Source: Duganella dendranthematis
Lineage (GTDB): Bacteria; Pseudomonadota; Gammaproteobacteria; Burkholderiales; Burkholderiaceae_D
DNA: 64,000 nucleotides
NCBI RefSeq assembly: GCF_012849375.1
Contig: NZ_CP051684.1
Span: forward strand, 682,001 to 746,000
Direction of reading: 5' to 3'
Numbering within the stretch: the stretch's first letter is position 1; every line of letters begins with the position of its first letter. The position numbers and the translations under genes are program-made. Under the pieces are notes generated by a model. The model ran no database searches. It had not been told where the DNA came from and worked only from the letters and a program-made list of their open reading frames with translations. Below are positions 8,951 through 16,930 of the stretch, piece after piece.

Positions 8951-9059
8951 TTTGTGCCGTACCGATTAACTGTGCGTTAAAGGGCGCCGCCGCGCCCAAT
9001 CTCCCCTTGAGTAGCCAGCCGCCGCCAGCCACACTCTCTTTCCACACCTGGAGCGTCTG

Positions 9060-9392
9060 ATGGCCATCGAACATAGCAACCCGATTTTCCTCGCCTCATC
9101 GCATGGCGGCCACAATCCCGAACTGATGCTGTCCGCCGTGCTGCATCTGATGTCGCACTACACCGCCGGCAGCGATGACGCCGGTGGTTGCGTCAAGCTG
9201 GCCTCGGTGATCGAGCGTCATCTGAAAGCACTAGCCGGTTTGCCGGAACTGGCGCCGGTGCTGAGCGCGACCTGCGCCCAGTTGTCGGAACAGTGGGCAA
9301 GCGAGGTGGAACGCAACATGCACGAACAGGAAAAGACCAACTTCCTGAGCCGCATCATGGCCCGCGCGCGCACTGCGCCGTCGGTCGCCTGA
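9060..9392 (+). CDS. hypothetical protein in the hemP operon
   Basis: A 110-aa product beginning MAIEHSNPIFLASSHGGHNP. I do not recognise the family. It is mostly helical in character, with no signal peptide or membrane segment, and ends with the basic helix FLSRIMARARTAP. It starts 109 nt after hemP and ends 15 nt before the DUF2325 gene, so it is probably co-transcribed with both and may be iron-regulated. Histidines cluster near the N-terminus (His5, His15, His18), and there are two cysteines further on. Confidence 0.75.
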   Translation: MAIEHSNPIFLASSHGGHNPELMLSAVLHLMSHYTAGSDDAGGCVKLASVIERHLKALAGLPELAPVLSATCAQLSEQWASEVERNMHEQEKTNFLSRIMARARTAPSVA

Positions 9393-9407
9393 GCGGAGCC
9401 GTTGACC

Positions 9408-10712
9408 ATGTGCGAGAAACACGATCCACTGGCGGCTATCATCGCCGCCGCCATGCCGCAGGTGGCCGGGCCGGTAGCCCAGCCCGGTCAGCGTCTGGCC
9501 GAGCAGAACGCCCGGCAAGTCATCAAGCCGGTCATCAACAACGTTTTCAGCGTGCTGGGCAAGGAACCGGAAGCGCAGGCTTCGCGCCGCCGCCGGCTGT
9601 GGGAACTGGGCCATGCCTGCCACTGCCCGCTGGTCGGGGTCGGCTTCCCGCTGGGCGTGCTGCGCAAGCTGGTCGACAAAGTCACCAGTGGCAAAGTGGT
9701 GGCCGACGACTACGAAGTACACGTCGGCGCGGTGACCGAATGCGCCAGCCGCAACCGCCTGTCGGAAGCGCTGCAAAAAGAGCTGGAACGTCGCTACGCG
9801 GCCGTGCTGCTGCGTTTCCGCAACGCCAAGACGACCGAACAGGTGGCCGAGCTGTGGCGCGCTGCGGTCAACAATGGCGACGTCGCCGGCGCCTTCTGGG
9901 CCGGCCTGACGCATCCGCGCTGCAATTCCGAACTGGAAGAACAGATGTGCCGCGACCTGCACATGGTGCAGCACCAGGCTGGCGCGTGCGTGCGTGCCGA
10001 CATCACCAAGTTCAACGCCACGCTGGAAGAAAACAAGCGCCTGACGCACGAGCTGGCCAAAGCCCAGCAACGCGCCAGCGCGCTGATGGCCGAGAAAACC
10101 ACCGACGCCGACAAGCACGCCTCGCAGCTGATGCAGCTGCGCGCGCAGGTGGTGGGCAAGGACAGCATGATCGACTCGATCAGGGGCGAACTGGAACAAT
10201 TGCGCGAATCGATTCCCGGCCTGGAATCGCGCGCCAAGCTGGCCGAGCGCCTAGGCCAGATGGAAGAACGCGAACGCGCCATGCGCAACCAGATCGCCGA
10301 ACTGAAACTGGAACTGGCGCGCGCCAACGACGCCTCAGTAGCCCCGGCGCCGGTGCAGGAAGCGGCCCGGCAGGTGGTCGAGCACGTCATGAAAATGCCG
10401 TTGAGTCTGCGTGAACGCGCGGTGCTGTGTGTCGGCGGTCGCAACGGTAACGTCGCCAGTTACCGCGAACTGATCGAGCGCGAAGGCGCGCAATTCAGCC
10501 ACCACGACGGCGGCCTGGAAGACAACGCCAACCGCCTGGAAGCGAGCCTGGCGGCGGCCGACCTGGTGATTTGTCAGACCGGCTGCATCAGCCACAGCGC
10601 GTACTGGCGGGTCAAAGACTACTGCAAGCGCAACGGCAAGCGTTGCGTCTTCATCGACAACCCCTCCATCTCCAGCCTGGCCCGCGGCCTGGAACAAGCC
10701 GGCGCCGATTAG
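9408..10712 (+). CDS. DUF2325 domain-containing protein
   Basis: A 434-aa cytosolic protein. The C-terminal 100 residues form the DUF2325 domain: VLCVGGRNGNVASYRELIER, HHDGGLEDN, LVICQTGCISHSAYWRVKDY. The domain's biochemical role is unknown. The middle (about 190-310) is a long charged helix, likely coiled coil. Near the N-terminus is a Cys/His cluster, LGHACHCPLVG (His69, Cys71, His72, Cys73), plus Cys2, which could bind metal or heme. I chose ATG at 9408 because GGAG lies 9 nt before it; a TTG at 9402 is possible. Its stop overlaps the converging reductase stop by 4 nt. Confidence 0.85.
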   Translation: MCEKHDPLAAIIAAAMPQVAGPVAQPGQRLAEQNARQVIKPVINNVFSVLGKEPEAQASRRRRLWELGHACHCPLVGVGFPLGVLRKLVDKVTSGKVVADDYEVHVGAVTECASRNRLSEALQKELERRYAAVLLRFRNAKTTEQVAELWRAAVNNGDVAGAFWAGLTHPRCNSELEEQMCRDLHMVQHQAGACVRADITKFNATLEENKRLTHELAKAQQRASALMAEKTTDADKHASQLMQLRAQVVGKDSMIDSIRGELEQLRESIPGLESRAKLAERLGQMEERERAMRNQIAELKLELARANDASVAPAPVQEAARQVVEHVMKMPLSLRERAVLCVGGRNGNVASYRELIEREGAQFSHHDGGLEDNANRLEASLAAADLVICQTGCISHSAYWRVKDYCKRNGKRCVFIDNPSISSLARGLEQAGAD

Positions 10713-12073
10713 TAGACGTCGCGGCGGTAGCGGCCGGCGACGGCGAGTGCGTCCAGGCCGTCGCGGCCTAGCGCGGCTTCCAGTGCGGCGTCGACGCCGG
10801 CCGCCATGCCTTCCAGGCTGCCGCAGATGTAGATGGCGGCGCCTTCGGCGATCCATTCTCGCACCGCTTCCGCCTGCTCGGCCAAACGGTCTTGCACGTA
10901 GCGCCGCTCGGTCTGGTCGCGAGAAAACACCATATCCAGTTTTTCCAGCATGCCGTCGCGCTGCCAGCCGTCCAGTTCAGCGCGGTAGTGGTAGTCGTAG
11001 GCGGCGTTGCGTTCGCCGAACAGCAACCAGTTGCGTCCCTGCCCTGCCAGCACACGCGCTTTCAGGTGGCCGCGCAGGCCGGCGATGCCACTGCCGTTGC
11101 CGATCAAGATCAGCGGCCGTTCGACGTTGCCTTCAAGGCGGAAACGGCGATGCTGGCGCAGCCGCAATTGCACGGTCTCGCCCAGCGACGCCTGCTGCGT
11201 CAGCCAGCCGGAGGCCACGCCGTGGCTGCCGTCATCATGCGTATGCAGACGCACCAGCAAATGGACGCGGCCATCGGCCGGAATCGAGGCGATTGAATAT
11301 TCCCGCGCGCGCGACGGATCGGCCGGCGCGGCCACCTGCACCAGGTCGCCCGACTGCCAGGCCGGCAGCGCGCCGTTCAGCGGTTCCAGTTCCAAGTGAT
11401 ACACCGGCGCGCCGGCGCTGCCGGCATTCAGTTGCACCCGCTCGCTCAGACGCCATGCGTCAAACGCCGGCGCGCTCCAGTCAGGCGCATCGCTGGTGCC
11501 TGCCAGGTGGCTCAATTGCTGCCGCCATTGCCCGATCGCCTGTTCCGAACTGCGGTTCACTTCCACGCGTGGGAACAGGCTTTGCGCGCCCTGCGCCTGC
11601 AGCCATTGATCCAGCGCGCGGCCGAAACCGCAGAACTGCGCATAAGCACTGTCGCCCAGCGCCAGCACCGCGTAATGCAGTTTCGGCAGCGGCAGCGAGG
11701 TGGTCATCAGGCGGCCTGCAAAGCCGGCCGCCGCATCCGGCGCGTCGCCCTCGCCATAGGTGCTGACCAGGAACAGGATGCGCTCGGCTTCCTGCAAATC
11801 CTGCGCCTCCAGCTCGGACAATTCGCACAGCCGTGCCGGAATACCGGCCAGCTTCAGCGTGGCGGCGGTTTGCTGCGCCAGTTCATCGGCATTGCCGGTC
11901 TGGCTGGCGTAGGTGACGATCCAGCCGGGCGAGGCCGCTGCTTCCGCCTTGGCGCGCGCGGCGGCCTGACGCTTGCGGCGCGTGCGCAGGTACGGCGCCA
12001 GACACACCAGCGCGTACCCCACGCTCATGCCTGCCACCATCATCAATCGGGAAGGGTCGTTGGTCCAAATCAT
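10709..12073 (-). CDS. membrane-anchored flavodoxin/NADPH-flavin reductase (CysJ/CPR-like)
   Basis: A 454-aa diflavin reductase. Residues 9-28 form one membrane helix followed by a strongly basic stretch (RTRRKRQ), placing the rest in the cytosol. A flavodoxin domain (about 50-190) has TYASQTGNADELAQQ and STYGEGDAPD. The FAD/NADP reductase part has REYSIASIP, IGNGSGIAGLRGHLKAR and the C-terminal ending YRRDVY seen in CysJ-type enzymes. It should pass electrons from NADPH through FAD and FMN towards the membrane. Its start overlaps the apbE stop by one base. It is the last gene of the Fur-controlled operon with PepSY, DUF2271, DUF4198 and ApbE, and a ferric or ferrisiderophore reductase role is inferred. 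Confidence 0.9.
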   Translation of the reverse strand: MIWTNDPSRLMMVAGMSVGYALVCLAPYLRTRRKRQAAARAKAEAAASPGWIVTYASQTGNADELAQQTAATLKLAGIPARLCELSELEAQDLQEAERILFLVSTYGEGDAPDAAAGFAGRLMTTSLPLPKLHYAVLALGDSAYAQFCGFGRALDQWLQAQGAQSLFPRVEVNRSSEQAIGQWRQQLSHLAGTSDAPDWSAPAFDAWRLSERVQLNAGSAGAPVYHLELEPLNGALPAWQSGDLVQVAAPADPSRAREYSIASIPADGRVHLLVRLHTHDDGSHGVASGWLTQQASLGETVQLRLRQHRRFRLEGNVERPLILIGNGSGIAGLRGHLKARVLAGQGRNWLLFGERNAAYDYHYRAELDGWQRDGMLEKLDMVFSRDQTERRYVQDRLAEQAEAVREWIAEGAAIYICGSLEGMAAGVDAALEAALGRDGLDALAVAGRYRRDVY

Positions 12074-13098
12074 TATTCGTCTAACATGCTGCGTAAATGG
12101 GTACTCAGGTATTCGGCGAAACTGCCGTCCGGCTGACGCACGACAAAGCGCGCCGCCAGTCCTTGCAGCTCAGCCAGATGCAGGCCGTCGCGCCAGCCCA
12201 GCACGGTCAGCGCGGTCGACCAGGCGTCGGCTGCCATGCACTGCGCGTGCACTACCGTGACCGAGGCCAGGTCGTTGGCGATCGGCATGCCGCTGCGCGG
12301 ATCGACGGTGTGGGAATAGCGCTTGCCGTCCAGCTCGAAATAGCGGCGATAGTCGCCAGAGGTGGCGACCGCCAGCCCATGCAAGGCCAGCACCAGTTCG
12401 TCCGGCGCGGTTGCGCCCGGGGCGATGTCGGTGACTTGCTCCAGCATGACCCACCAAGGCTGGCCGTCCGGCTTGACGCCGGCGCCGCGCAACTCGCCGC
12501 CCACCTCGACCAGGTGGTGCGCAAAGCCCTGGGTTTTCAGGTAATAAGACAGCCGGTCGACGCTGTAGCCCTTGGCCACGGCCGACAGATCCAGCTGCAC
12601 GCCGCCCGGCTGCAAGGCCTTGCGGCCATCGCGCTGCAGGCGCACCGGCCGCGCCGCCAGCTGGCTGCGGGCGATGCTGATTTCATCGTTGGAAGGCGGT
12701 ACAAAATCCGGCTGGTCGTAGCGCCCCCACGGGCCGAAGCCCCACAGGTTGACAAGCGTACCGGCGGTCGGATCGTAAGCGCCGCCGGAAGCGCGCGCTA
12801 CATCCATCGCAAAAGCCAGCACATCAAAAAATGCCGGCGGCAACACGTGCCAGCTATCGGCGGGCGCGCGGTTGAAGCGGCCCAGGTCGGAATCGGTTTC
12901 CCAGTGGCTCATTTCAGCCACGATGGCGTCGAGCTGCTGTTGCAGCCCGTCCTGCAAATGCGTGCAGACGGCATCCGGCGCGGCCACCAGCCGCACCGAC
13001 CAGCTGGTACCCATGCTGCGGCCAGCGTAGTCGTGGATCACGCCGCCTGCTGGCGCCGGGTCGTCGGAAATATCGTGTGGCAGAAGAACCCGGCGCAT
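12073..13098 (-). CDS. apbE: FAD:protein FMN transferase ApbE
   Basis: Transfers FMN from FAD to a Ser/Thr of a target protein. The 341-aa product has the family motifs RSMGTSWSV, GGAYDPTAGTLVNLWGFGP, LDLSAVAKGYSVDRL, VEVGGELRGAG, HTVDPRSGMPI and MAADAWSTAL. No signal peptide, Tat motif or lipobox is visible at the N-terminus, whereas many ApbE proteins are exported lipoproteins. No earlier in-frame start was found. The likely target is the DUF2271 protein two genes upstream, which has a flavinylation motif. It follows the DUF4198 gene by 7 nt and overlaps the reductase start. Confidence 0.95.
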   Translation of the reverse strand: MRRVLLPHDISDDPAPAGGVIHDYAGRSMGTSWSVRLVAAPDAVCTHLQDGLQQQLDAIVAEMSHWETDSDLGRFNRAPADSWHVLPPAFFDVLAFAMDVARASGGAYDPTAGTLVNLWGFGPWGRYDQPDFVPPSNDEISIARSQLAARPVRLQRDGRKALQPGGVQLDLSAVAKGYSVDRLSYYLKTQGFAHHLVEVGGELRGAGVKPDGQPWWVMLEQVTDIAPGATAPDELVLALHGLAVATSGDYRRYFELDGKRYSHTVDPRSGMPIANDLASVTVVHAQCMAADAWSTALTVLGWRDGLHLAELQGLAARFVVRQPDGSFAEYLSTHLRSMLDE

Positions 13099-13105
13099 GC
13101 CTGCC

Positions 13106-13942
13106 TTATTCCGGCAGGATCTCGACCACGGCCGAGTAGCTGACGCGGCGTGGCGCCATCTGCGGCGGCTGGCCTTCGACGCGCTTGATTTCAGGCCAGC
13201 TGCTGCTGATCATGTACTGGCCGGCGGCCGGCAGCGTCAGCGTCAGTTCGCCCTTGTCGTTGGTGGTCTGACGGATTTCGCCCAGCGTGCCACGGAACTT
13301 GACGCCGCCCTGGAACAGGCTCACGCCCTGGTTGGCGGCCGGTTTGCCGTCCACCAGGAAACGCCAGGTCACCTTGTCACCCGCGTGCAGCTCGGTTGGA
13401 TTGGTGACTGGCACCATTTCCAGGCCTTTGCCGGTCGGCTTGAACACATTCATGTCCGGCTTGCCGGTGGAGACAAAAGTTTCCAGACGGGTTTCCTGAC
13501 GCGAGATTTTCACCTCGGTGGCATCGGCCGGCACTTCTTTCGACAGCGTTTCCTCGGTAGCACGGAAGCGCTTCATATTGCCTTCCTTGTCCTTGTAGCT
13601 GCCCATCACGGCGGCGTTGACCAGCGCGACTTTGTAGGTGCCCGGCTTCGGCAGGTTCAGGTCGAACGTACTGCGCAGCTTGCCGTTGTTGACGTTCTGC
13701 GGCTGCAAGGCGCTGCCGTCCGGCGCGGTGATGCTCAAGCCGTCCAGCTTCAGCGAGAAATCGATGGTGAACAGATTCTCGGCCACGGCGGCGTCAAACG
13801 TCACCCAGGCCGAACCGTCACGCGCCGGTTCCACTTCCGTGGTCGAGGCCAGGATGTACGGCTTGTGCGCCTGCGCATTCAGCGAGACAACGGACAGGCC
13901 AGCCAGCGCCAGTGCGATCAACGACTTATTCATTTTCGACAT
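13106..13942 (-). CDS. DUF4198 family periplasmic protein
   Basis: A 278-aa protein with a Sec signal (MSKMNKSLIALALAGLSVVS, cleavage likely after NAQA) followed by AHKPYILASTT, the His-containing start of mature DUF4198 proteins. The rest is predicted beta-rich: GTYKVALVNA, GDKVTWRFLVDGKPAANQ and GQYMISSSWPE suggest two immunoglobulin-like domains. The family is found with nickel, cobalt and iron transport genes; its exact role is unknown. I chose the start at 13942 because GGACGGGG lies just before it; an ATG at 13954 would begin 2 nt after the DUF2271 stop. Confidence 0.88.
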   Translation of the reverse strand: MSKMNKSLIALALAGLSVVSLNAQAHKPYILASTTEVEPARDGSAWVTFDAAVAENLFTIDFSLKLDGLSITAPDGSALQPQNVNNGKLRSTFDLNLPKPGTYKVALVNAAVMGSYKDKEGNMKRFRATEETLSKEVPADATEVKISRQETRLETFVSTGKPDMNVFKPTGKGLEMVPVTNPTELHAGDKVTWRFLVDGKPAANQGVSLFQGGVKFRGTLGEIRQTTNDKGELTLTLPAAGQYMISSSWPEIKRVEGQPPQMAPRRVSYSAVVEILPE

Positions 13943-13956
13943 ATCCCCGTCCATTC

Positions 13957-14466
13957 TTATGGTTTGACTTGCACAACGACCGCGCCGAGTTCTTCCTTGC
14001 CCTGGCCGTTCACGTTCTGTGCCGACTTCGGCGGCCATTGCAGCGGCACCTTGACCACTTCGCGGCCACCGGCTTCGCGCGCCGCTTCGACCATCACGGT
14101 GTACTGGCCGGCCGGCAGCTTGTCCAGCGCGCCTTTCGGTGCATTCAGCGTGAACTCGCCTGGCGCCTTGGTCGCACCCGACACGCCATCCAGCGGCATC
14201 GTCAGTTCACGGCCGGTCTTGCGCCACCACGTGCGCATGTCCTTCAGCCACTTGGTGCCGGCGTTGTCCTTTTTCTTGGTGTCGTACAGCACGGCCAGGT
14301 TGGCCACCACCTGCTGGTCGGCGTTTTCCACCCACGCAGCGATGTAAGGGCGATGGTATTCCGCCACATTCAACTGCGGCACGTCGAGTTTGAGGGCCAG
14401 ATCGGCGGCCATGGCCGAAGCACTGGCGAGTGGCAGACTAAGCGCGATGGAGTAGCGTAATTTCAT
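13957..14466 (-). CDS. DUF2271 family periplasmic protein with flavinylation motif
   Basis: A 169-aa protein with a Sec signal (MKLRYSIALSLPLASASAMA). The mature part contains WVENADQQVVANLAVLY, WLKDMRTWWRKTGREL and then DGVSGAT at residues 93-99. This fits the Dxx(S/T)GA(T/S) motif modified by ApbE, with Thr99 as the predicted FMN site. DUF2271 proteins are known as targets of flavin transfer in operons with apbE and PepSY genes. It probably carries FMN in the periplasm and accepts electrons coming through the membrane. It starts 17 nt after the PepSY stop. Confidence 0.92.
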   Translation of the reverse strand: MKLRYSIALSLPLASASAMAADLALKLDVPQLNVAEYHRPYIAAWVENADQQVVANLAVLYDTKKKDNAGTKWLKDMRTWWRKTGRELTMPLDGVSGATKAPGEFTLNAPKGALDKLPAGQYTVMVEAAREAGGREVVKVPLQWPPKSAQNVNGQGKEELGAVVVQVKP

Positions 14467-14483
14467 GGAAGTCCTGTGTGGGA

Positions 14484-15131
14484 TTAATGGATAAACAGCA
14501 GTGCAATTACGATGGGAATCAGCACGCCCAGGCCCACCATCGGCCAGGTGAACGGCCGATTCGCCGCATGGAACTTCAAAATCAATAAACCGGTGATGCA
14601 GAACACCAGGCACAGCACGGCGAAGATGTCGATGAACCAGTTCCACGCCGGACCGGTGTTGCGGCCCTTGTGGACGTCGTTCAGCCACGAGATCCAGCCG
14701 CGGTCGGTATTTTCGAATTCGGCCGCGCCGTCTTCCAGGCCGATGCGCACCCAGGCGTCGCCGCCGGCCTTGGGCATCGGCAGATAGACTTCGTCGCTGG
14801 CCCACTCGGCATTGCGGCCGCCCGGCTGCACCTTGAATGTGTCCTTCAGCCATTGCTCAACCGGCGCCGGCAGCGGCTCCTTGGCGCCGTCGTGCTGCTC
14901 GGCATAGCTGCGCAGCTGGGTCGTCAGCGGCGCCGGCAACTGCGCCTGCTGGCGGGTGATGACCGGCTTGGCCTCGATCTGCGACGCGTGGTTCAGCGTG
15001 ATGCCGGTGACCGAAAACAGGAACATGCAGAGCAGACACATGGCCGAACTGATCCAATGCCACTGGTGCAACTGCTTCAGCCAGACGGCGCGGCTGGCAT
15101 TGCGGGCGGAACTGGCGCCTTGTACGCTCAC
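14484..15131 (-). CDS. PepSY-associated TM domain protein
   Basis: A 215-aa membrane protein. After a short cytosolic segment (LKQLHQWHWISS) comes a first helix (about 20-42), then a periplasmic PepSY-like part containing DTFKVQPGG, WVRIGLEDG and WLNDVHKGRNTG. Two more helices follow (about 158-178 and 188-213). PepSY membrane proteins take part in electron transfer to ferric siderophores. I chose GTG at 15131: GAGGGA lies just before it, and the upstream ATG at 15155 falls ahead of the predicted transcription start (-10 at 15158-15163). It is the first gene of the Fur-controlled operon. Confidence 0.9.
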   Translation of the reverse strand: MSVQGASSARNASRAVWLKQLHQWHWISSAMCLLCMFLFSVTGITLNHASQIEAKPVITRQQAQLPAPLTTQLRSYAEQHDGAKEPLPAPVEQWLKDTFKVQPGGRNAEWASDEVYLPMPKAGGDAWVRIGLEDGAAEFENTDRGWISWLNDVHKGRNTGPAWNWFIDIFAVLCLVFCITGLLILKFHAANRPFTWPMVGLGVLIPIVIALLFIH

Positions 15132-15155
15132 GGGAATTCCCTCGACGAAAAACAT

Positions 15156-15176
15156 AAATGATAATGATTATCATTT
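15156..15176 (-). promoter_or_regulatory. Fur box (perfect 10+1+10 palindrome)
   Basis: A 21-base perfect inverted repeat around a central G at 15166. Each arm is AAATGATAAT, built from the Fur hexamer GATAAT. It covers the -10 of the promoter at 15158-15186, so ferric uptake regulator bound with iron should block transcription of the PepSY-DUF2271-DUF4198-apbE-reductase operon. Confidence 0.93.
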
Positions 15177-15186
15177 GATGGGTCAA
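15158..15186 (-). promoter_or_regulatory. sigma-70 promoter of the PepSY-apbE-reductase operon
   Basis: On the minus strand, -35 TTGACC (15186-15181) and -10 TATCAT (15163-15158) are spaced by exactly 17 nt. Transcription would start near 15151. This leaves a 20-nt leader with GAGGGA before the GTG at 15131 and excludes the ATG at 15155. The Fur palindrome overlaps the -10 and spacer. Confidence 0.8.
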
Positions 15187-15282
15187 GCCGATTGTGTATC
15201 TGCTATGTAAAGTTGCGCACATTGTGTGGGCGGCAAGCGGGTTAAGGTGAACGCAACGACATCTTTATCATGGAGGCGCATC

Positions 15283-15780
15283 ATGCCGCTCTATTCGCAG
15301 GAACAAATCAACACCATCGCCGCCAAGATCAAGCATGTGAAGTTCGGCATGTTCACCACGGTGGATGGCGATAACGTGCTGAGCAGCCGTCCGCTGACCA
15401 CGCAGCAGATGGATAACGAGGGCAATATGTGGTTCTTCACCTCGGACGAGGCGGCATTCACGCACGATCTGGCGCAGCATCCGGAGGTGAATGTGAGTTT
15501 TTCCAATCCGGACGAGCAGTTATACCTGTCGGTGACCGGGCAGGCGTATTTGCTGAAGGACCGGGCCAAGGCGCGGGAATTGTGGAGTCCGCTGGTGCGG
15601 GCATGGTTCCCCGGTGGTCTGGATGACCCGCATCTGGCCATGATACGGGTCCGCATCCAGACCGCCGAGTACTGGGACGCCAGCGCCAGCAAGATGAAGC
15701 AGCTGGTGCAGCTAGCCAAAGCGGCCGTCACCGGCCGCACGGCGGTGGATATGGGCAAGCATTACACGATCTGTTTGTAA
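15283..15780 (+). CDS. pyridoxamine 5'-phosphate oxidase-related (general stress, FMN-binding split barrel) protein
   Basis: A 165-aa protein of the general stress protein 26 type: ADGDN-like strand FGMFTTVDGDNVLSSRPLTT, then MWFFTSDEAAFTHDL and VNVSFSNPDEQLYLSVTGQA, all typical of the flavin-binding split barrel. Members bind FMN, FAD or F420, but the physiological reaction is usually unknown. GGAGG lies 6 nt before the ATG at 15283. It is divergent from the Fur-controlled operon, 107 nt from the Fur box, and followed by a strong palindrome (15793-15818). Confidence 0.88.
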   Translation: MPLYSQEQINTIAAKIKHVKFGMFTTVDGDNVLSSRPLTTQQMDNEGNMWFFTSDEAAFTHDLAQHPEVNVSFSNPDEQLYLSVTGQAYLLKDRAKARELWSPLVRAWFPGGLDDPHLAMIRVRIQTAEYWDASASKMKQLVQLAKAAVTGRTAVDMGKHYTICL

Positions 15781-15792
15781 CCCAACACCAAG

Positions 15793-15818
15793 GGGTCTGA
15801 CCCCGCGGGGTCAGACCC
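15793..15818. repeat. perfect 26-base palindrome, possible dispersed repeat or terminator
   Basis: GGGTCTGACCCCG followed by its exact reverse complement. It lies 13 nt after a stop codon, between a plus-strand gene and a converging minus-strand gene, so it could stop transcription from both sides, though no T run follows. I recall similar GGGGTCTGACCCC palindromes as frequent in Oxalobacteraceae genomes, but only this copy is in the window. Confidence 0.7.
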
Positions 15819-15848
15819 TGGCATCGCGGTGTAAGGGGGGCAAGCGCG

Positions 15849-16175
15849 CTATTTCGATCGGCTGCCGCCCCGCCCGCCCTTGCTGTTATCCTGCTCCATA
15901 TTCTCGCCTTCGTCCTCCTCCTCCTCCTCCTCGGGCTTGGCGCTACCCTTGTTGCCCGGGTTGGCGCTCTGCTTGCTGCGTCCCGGATCGTTCTTGTGAC
16001 TCATCGCGCCGGCCTTGCGCGCCTCCTCCGATGTGAACTCATGCGCCGTGCCTTTTTCATGCGCGGCGCGACCGCCTTCCGCAGCGATTTCGCGCTGCTG
16101 TTCCGGGTCCATGGAAGCGAACCCGCGTTTGCTGGTGTTGTCGCTTTGCTTGTTACCTTTGTCATTGGTTGCCAT
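15849..16175 (-). CDS. KGG-repeat stress-induced protein (con-10/GsiB type)
   Basis: A 108-aa, very hydrophilic, probably disordered protein. It contains KRGFASMDPEQQREIAAEGG, RAAHEKGTAHEFTSEEARKAG and GAMSHKN, the repeated Gly-rich KGG-type motif of stress-induced bacterial proteins. A run of six Glu and a Gly/Ser/Arg tail follow. AGGAGAT lies 6 nt before the ATG at 16175, which I prefer over the ATG at 16181. Role: general stress or desiccation tolerance, by family. Confidence 0.88.
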   Translation of the reverse strand: MATNDKGNKQSDNTSKRGFASMDPEQQREIAAEGGRAAHEKGTAHEFTSEEARKAGAMSHKNDPGRSKQSANPGNKGSAKPEEEEEEDEGENMEQDNSKGGRGGSRSK

Positions 16176-16288
16176 GATCATCTCCTGAGATAAAACTCCT
16201 GCGTGCAGCACAGGAGCAGTCATCCTAGTTCACGTCCAATGCACCCAACGTAGGACGCCGGCAATAGCCGATGTAGGAGCGTTCCGCA

Positions 16289-16930
16289 TCAAGGAATCGA
16301 CAACACCGCCTCGCCGCTGCTGACGTACATGCGCTCGTCCGGCTGCGCCATCACCGGATGGCCGCCGGTGAACGCGCCAAACGACGGCAGCACCATGCGC
16401 TGCGGCCCCACCAGGAAGCACGGCAGCAACAACGACTCCCAGCCCGAACGCAGCCGGTATACCGGATGCACATGCCCCGCCAGCACATACGACGGCACCA
16501 GCACGTCCGGGTGATGGCAAAACGCGAACGGCCCGATCACATGCGGCTCGTCCACCATCTCAATCTCCAGCTCCGCCGGCGGATCGCCCGCATGCGCATC
16601 ATGGTTGCCGCGCACCACGGTCAGACGCAGGTCGGGATGGCGCTGGCGCCAGGCCAGCATCGCCGCCAGCGTGGCCGGCGCATGGGCCGCCCGCGCATGC
16701 AGGAAGTCGCCGAGGAACATGACGTGGCGCACATCGTACTGCGCCAGCAGCGCATCCAGCCCCAGCAGATTGGCACTGGTGGTGCCCGCAGGCACCGGCA
16801 CGCCCAAGGCGCGGAACGAGGCGGCCTTGCCAAAGTGAATGTCGGCGATGATCAGCATGCCCTCGCGCGGCCAATAGGCGGCCTTTTGCGGCAACAGCAG
16901 CAGTTGTTCATTGGCCAGGGTCAGCATCAT
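16289..16930 (-). CDS. pdeM: ligase-associated DNA damage response endonuclease PdeM
   Basis: A 213-aa calcineurin-like metallophosphoesterase. Its metal-binding blocks are in order: [31 protein letters not shown] and LAGHVHPVY. This is the family that accompanies the ligase/helicase/exonuclease repair cluster. Its start overlaps the helicase stop by 4 nt (ATGA). It is the last gene of the four-gene operon 16289-22170. Confidence 0.92.

Follow-up and report, generated by a model that had tools for sequence, protein, structure and literature searches.

A Fur-box-preceded five-gene flavinylation operon in Duganella dendranthematis: a candidate route to periplasmic ferric iron whose ApbE lacks a recognisable signal peptide

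The closest described relative of the locus examined here is the Caulobacter crescentus operon CC_3059-3063 (CCNA_03155-03159), which matches it in all five gene types and in their order (PMC3751524, PMC12004947). It is reported to respond to iron limitation with a 12.25- to 44.13-fold induction and to be induced by fur mutation as well, and Fur binds its promoter in electrophoretic mobility shift assays (PMC3751524); insertions in the operon lower fitness in ethylenediaminetetraacetic acid (EDTA) (PMC12004947). Its first gene, drawn with a GTG start, appears as ‘Transporter’ in Table 1 of PMC3751524 and as a PepSY-family protein in PMC12004947. In Alteromonas, DUF2271 and DUF4198 genes are described as upregulated under iron limitation (PMC7190382), and a survey by Meheust et al. 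(2021, PMC8238504) defined a class of ‘PepSY-like flavinylation systems’ for which iron reduction was proposed. Here we analysed a 64,000-nucleotide stretch of Duganella dendranthematis (contig NZ_CP051684.1, positions 682,001 to 746,000; hereafter the window), which carries five head-to-tail minus-strand genes at 10709-15155. Since the Caulobacter operon and the Alteromonas iron response were already on record, the operon type is known, and the window operon is a Duganella example of the Caulobacter-type Fur-regulated operon. The initial annotation of the window proposed a flavin-based route for reducing iron outside the cytoplasm; that reading stands overall, but it passed over the earlier descriptions of the operon, the probable metal binding of DUF4198 and the missing signal peptide of ApbE. 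The features, in order of transcription, are as follows.

15157..15175, no strand assigned: Fur-box-like palindrome of two overlapping 16-mers, one exact and one with 1 mismatch (motif scan)
14484..15131, minus strand: PepSY_TM_like_2 inner-membrane protein, 215 amino acids (PF16357, 275 bits); likely GTG start, the open reading frame extending to an ATG at 15155
13957..14466, minus strand: DUF2271 protein with a Sec-type signal peptide by rule, predicted ApbE substrate (PF10029, 160.2 bits)
14170..14190, minus strand: flavinylation motif DGVSGAT with target Thr99
13106..13942 (start may be 13933), minus strand: DUF4198 periplasmic protein (149.5 bits)
13865..13867, minus strand: His codon, N-terminus of mature DUF4198 by predicted cleavage
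12073..13098, minus strand: ApbE, flavin adenine dinucleotide (FAD):protein flavin mononucleotide (FMN) transferase, no signal peptide recognised by rule (PF02424, 264.8 bits)
10709..12073, minus strand: compact CysJ-like diflavin reductase with one N-terminal membrane anchor (Flavodoxin_1, 101 bits; NAD_binding_1, 39.7 bits; CysJ alignment)

The Pfam scores and the spacing bear out five genes in this order on one strand: successive intergenic gaps are 17, 14 and 7 bp, and apbE overlaps the reductase gene in the sequence TAATG. The closest named records are from Duganella, the top one being Duganella margarita with a DUF2271 98 percent identical. The likeness to Caulobacter extends to the five gene types, their order, the Fur site and the GTG-start PepSY gene; it is a likeness of gene types and not a direct protein comparison, the Caulobacter genome matching PF10029, PF02424 and PF16357. 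Whereas expression and an EDTA phenotype are known in Caulobacter, the Duganella operon is known from its genes alone, that is, from their content and order, the Fur box, rule-based signal peptides, conserved residues and folds. By analogy we take Fur control and the iron phenotype from Caulobacter, and flavinylation from a different DUF2271, that of A. ursilacus. Taken together, we assign a probability of roughly 0.7 to the reading that this is a Fur-controlled operon moving electrons from reduced nicotinamide adenine dinucleotide phosphate (NADPH) through a periplasmic flavoprotein to ferric iron, a reading favoured by the gene order, Fur box, flavinylation motif, reductase, and the Fur repression and EDTA phenotype in Caulobacter.

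The perfect Fur palindrome previously noted before the operon, GATAATGATTATCATT, occupies 15160-15175 without a mismatch, and the 6.53-Mb genome has no other exact copy. Allowing up to 2 mismatches gave 8 matches at 6 places genome-wide (reversed control, 0), and allowing up to 3 gave two in the window, overlapping and both at the operon site, versus 0.08 expected. The box stands as noted; its position relative to the PepSY gene needs revision. The ATG at 15155 abuts the box, the GTG at 15131 is preceded by the ribosome-binding sequence gaggga, and the box-to-GTG spacing is the same in the close relatives L061 and L066; for these reasons the gene probably starts at the GTG, which places the box 26-44 nt upstream. 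Elsewhere in the genome there are five more Fur-like places, at each of which one or two neighbours were scanned: L163 adjoins a TonB-receptor plug protein, L164/L169 adjoins feoA and tonB, L166 a protein with PepSY_TM and flavodoxin domains, L167 a TonB receptor, and L168 both a TonB receptor and a PepSY_TM protein, so that the 16-mer marks iron genes in this genome. The feoA beside its Fur-like box is followed by FeoB, and thus the likely entry route for Fe(II) has the same Fur-like motif as the operon. The PepSY_TM proteins at the boxes of L166 (near 2549395) and L168 (near 5418779), one with a flavodoxin domain, may possibly provide redundancy for ferrisiderophore reduction. A divergent pyridoxamine-phosphate-oxidase-like gene (15283-15777, plus strand) lies 107 bp from the operon's Fur box and could share it. 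An Rfam scan of 9000-16500 gave no match.

Conservation was examined in 100 DUF2271 neighbourhoods, comprising the window and 99 fetched from genus and phylum samples; seven further places above the cut-off (G023, G026, G027, G029, G031, G033:C80 and the second of G025) and 11 below it lay outside this set. DUF2271 occurred above the cut-off in 65 of the 398 genomes of the phylum sample. The five genes appeared in the window order in 50/100 neighbourhoods (28 in the genus, counting the window, and 22 outside it). A second set took the 80 named loci whose DUF2271 most resembles that of the window; biased to close relatives and repeating 7 fetched loci, it had the full order in 70. The expectation that related genomes would share both order and Fur box was borne out in part: the 16-mer preceded 28 of the 50 five-gene loci with up to 2 mismatches (21 exact) and 33 with up to 3, while a box of this form was absent within 3 mismatches before the other 17, several of which have a different palindrome by eye.

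The next commonest arrangement (16/100; L079, L131 and others) has DUF2271, a reductase and a signal-less ApbE but no DUF4198; in the two such loci that were scanned the reductase is a fusion of PepSY_TM, flavodoxin and NAD-binding domains. None of these 16 loci has a Fur-like 16-mer within 3 mismatches. That a DUF2271 arrangement exists without such a box lends some support to the idea that the pathway serves, in iron-starved cells, to repair or recharge redox targets of the envelope (for example oxidised methionine, quinones or heme proteins) and not to reduce iron for uptake. We consider this improbable, given that the Pfam scan revealed no repair enzyme in the operon, that insertions in the Caulobacter operon reduce fitness in EDTA, and that VciB of V. 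cholerae, a related PepSY-like protein, is cited in PMC8238504 as having iron reductase activity.

Like the systems of the PMC8238504 class, to which it belongs by these features, the window operon combines a PepSY-like membrane protein, a DUF2271 with the target Thr, a secreted DUF4198 and ApbE. Both earlier statements on DUF2271, that it carries a flavinylation motif and that it is periplasmic, agree with our results. Thr99 of DGVSGAT is invariant in 36/36 aligned sequences and the protein has a Sec-type signal peptide by the rule described below. The strict motif is absent from the DUF2271 of 9 of the 50 five-gene loci, mostly through Pro in place of the Ala preceding Thr, and relaxing the motif gives matches in 89 of the 100 neighbourhoods. 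Other ApbE targets within the operon were ruled out, as the motif occurred in 0/77 reductases, 0/77 PepSY proteins and 0/80 DUF4198 proteins. Flavinylation of the A. ursilacus DUF2271 is reported to be ApbE-dependent and abolished by a Thr-to-Ala change (PMC8238504), and FMN would be expected on the window protein.

The main departure from this class concerns ApbE: the survey treats flavinylation as extracytosolic, whereas the window ApbE has no recognisable signal peptide. Signal peptides were assigned with a simple home-made Sec rule. In the two sets the rule recognised a signal on DUF2271 in 95/100 and 79/80 cases and on DUF4198 in 79/80 and 78/79, versus 6/80 and 3/77 for ApbE. Counted as distinct sequences (7 named loci duplicate fetched ones), the figures were 165/171, 150/152 and 9/149, the ApbE count omitting a second locus of the window's own genome (L148). 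Thus 140 of 149 distinct ApbEs adjoining DUF2271 lack a signal by the rule. Among the nine that have one, four are single-reading-frame ApbE-DUF2271 fusions (L120, L129, L137, L146), L119 is a clear lipoprotein, and the remaining four (L083, L204, L217, L240) seem on visual inspection to be false positives; within the 50 five-gene loci of the first set only L083 and L119 scored. As a control we took 34 genomes with no DUF2271 match above the cut-off (31 from the same order, 2 from the family and 1 from the genus). ApbE was present in 21 of them, at 31 places, of which 30 yielded loci and 28 a full open reading frame (two frames counted twice), and the rule recognised a signal in 14/28.

Moreover, 17 of the 22 five-gene genomes outside the genus had no signal-bearing ApbE at all, the exceptions being G450, G384, G212, G254 (doubtful) and G442 (not recognised by the rule, twin-arginine-like by eye). 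Neither of the two ApbEs of the window's genome has a signal peptide by the rule. In the window ApbE neither a signal peptide nor a lipobox was recognised, and by this home-made rule the protein does not class as extracytosolic. At most 28 residues separate its first possible start from the MGT motif, and this room is 30 residues or fewer in 44/78 and 40/77 ApbEs. An N-terminal RVL-x-P-like motif (13040-13098, minus strand, in the window) occupies the place where a signal would sit in 37/50 and 72/77. A signal hidden by a wrongly called start was rejected as an explanation: the rule was applied to ATG, GTG and TTG starts as far as 60 codons ahead of the domain, and in the window ApbE only those 28 residues fit before the MGT motif. 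Export of DUF2271 by the twin-arginine route, which would make flavinylation before export ordinary, was dismissed for most of these proteins because twin arginines occurred in only 1/100 and 0/80 of the stretches examined; the DUF2271 proteins of L084, L085 and L086 start MRR. The second ApbE of the window's genome (G000:C1:2749016-2749819, in L148, G000:C1:2744000-2758000), the only protein scanned there, follows a beta-barrel-like protein and precedes a DsbD-like gene; by eye the locus resembles a DUF3570/DsbD flavinylation cluster, the substrate of which would be exported too.

An ApbE without a signal peptide alongside a DUF2271 with one suggests that a cytosolic ApbE attaches the flavin to the DUF2271 precursor and that Sec then carries the polypeptide, with its covalent FMN, to the periplasm; from sequence we judge the odds of this order of events to be about even. 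According to PMC12052999, most ApbEs are exported, signal-less ones being named for eukaryotes and for a soluble fumarate reductase of Klebsiella, and in Salmonella a periplasmic location of ApbE is essential. The same source states that seven-residue tags can be flavinylated by ApbE, and therefore a loosely folded DUF2271 precursor could be a substrate. In the PMC8238504 assay, truncated DUF2271 and ApbE were produced together in E. coli, so flavinylation can run in the cytosol. What weighs against cytosolic attachment is that the A. ursilacus ApbE used there, which lies outside our signal-rule sets, is termed ‘signal peptide-truncated’, contrary to a signal-less ApbE in that organism. Neither flavinylation before export nor a signal-less ApbE paired with an exported DUF2271 was found in the openly licensed literature searched, as far as its available text extends.

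These data also bear on whether flavinylated DUF2271 takes part in electron transfer at all. The PepSY protein and reductase might reduce iron directly, with DUF2271 binding or docking and ApbE modifying it after an unusual export of its own, or never. Eight of the 100 neighbourhoods have PepSY, DUF2271 and DUF4198 genes but no nearby ApbE or reductase, as would fit this proposal, and to our knowledge FoxB needs no DUF2271. FoxB is on record as reducing ferrisiderophores in the periplasm (PMC13001220), and the signal peptide described for the A. ursilacus ApbE points the same way. Nevertheless, the conservation of Thr99 in all 36 aligned sequences, the flavinylation of the A. ursilacus protein at the equivalent Thr (PMC8238504) and the failure to recognise any export signal on the window ApbE make it doubtful, though somewhat less so than the envelope-repair proposal.

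For transfer through DUF2271, electrons would have to cross the inner membrane. The PepSY protein matches PF16357 (275 bits) and PF03929 (43.2 bits), and its AlphaFold model (predicted local distance difference test score, 93.5) has three long helices at 13-55, 168-197 and 203-221, in keeping with the three-transmembrane PepSY-like proteins of the PMC8238504 systems. A Foldseek search of this model against the PDB returned nothing at E<=0.001, FoxB emerging only on a second look. The protein differs from FoxB-type siderophore reductases (7abw) in having three helices and 215 amino acids versus 365 residues (7abw_B), and in being accompanied by a separate reductase and flavoprotein. The reductase was earlier described as membrane-anchored and CysJ-like, in accord with its flavodoxin and NAD-binding domains, N-terminal anchor and alignment to CysJ through the C-terminal RDVY. 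Unlike CysJ, it is 454 amino acids long and anchored, PF00667 was not detected in the Pfam scan, and its score of 272.8 bits falls below the CysJ equivalog cut-off of 668.15. It also departs from the PMC8238504 class in being an anchored diflavin protein of its own, not fused to PepSY. The step from reductase to PepSY is backed by the PepSY_TM-flavodoxin-NAD-binding fusions at other DUF2271 loci (2/2 scanned) and by the PepSY_TM-flavodoxin protein of L166. Downstream, a DUF2325 coiled-coil gene (9402-10712, plus strand) converges on the reductase gene, their ends overlapping by 4 bp.

DUF4198 matches in fold the metal-binding protein Zcp (9mhi-9mho) and the Ni-binding Ideonella DUF4198 (9gcb), although identity to the window protein is only ∼14-18 percent; when the DUF4198 profile was run against PDB sequences, Zcp was found and 9gcb missed, and the fold search recovered both. 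The predicted N-terminal His of the mature protein is conserved in 60/60 aligned sequences, and by analogy of fold and this His, DUF4198 probably binds metal. The window protein and a small close group (mature protein 13109-13867, minus strand) keep this His and lack two other common ones: the His of alignment column 38 (present in 44/60) is missing, and Asn stands at 156, where 55/60 have His. The target could be a metal other than iron (nickel, copper, zinc or cobalt), with DUF4198 the main player, the redox proteins setting valence and Fur control reflecting cross-talk between metal pools. PDB titles list copper, zinc and cobalt bound to Zcp, the Ideonella protein binds nickel (PMC12537917), and a Bordetella PepSY_TM protein is reported to support heme-copper enzymes (PMC13038864). 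We nonetheless find this unlikely in view of the perfect Fur box, the Fur-like sites that this genome has beside feoA, tonB and receptors, and the induction of the Caulobacter operon by iron limitation and fur mutation. It also counts against other metals that nickel and zinc need no reduction.

Under the preferred reading, iron starvation would release Fur from the promoter and the five genes would be coexpressed. Cytosolic ApbE would use cytosolic FAD to place FMN on Thr99 of the DUF2271 precursor, which would then leave through Sec. At the inner face of the membrane the anchored reductase would take up electrons from NADPH through its FAD and FMN domains, as its family and motifs indicate, and the electrons may traverse the membrane by way of a putative heme on conserved His of the three-helix PepSY protein to reach the FMN of periplasmic DUF2271. 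The likely final acceptor would be Fe(III) or a ferrisiderophore; DUF4198 may bind metal at or after the reduction, and Fe(II) would enter through FeoB.

The operon is a candidate for a compact electron path leading from NADPH to ferric iron in the periplasm, each part of which maps to a testable step, and it offers DUF4198, a family for which metal-bound structures have been solved, a concrete place in an iron-starvation setting. The location of ApbE is the part worth testing. If flavin is indeed attached before export, such systems would need no FAD exporter, and censuses that keep only signal-bearing ApbEs could undercount flavinylation. The accepted order, export and then flavinylation, would be reversed for a large group of electron carriers in the periplasm, which would change the view of how periplasmic flavoproteins mature.
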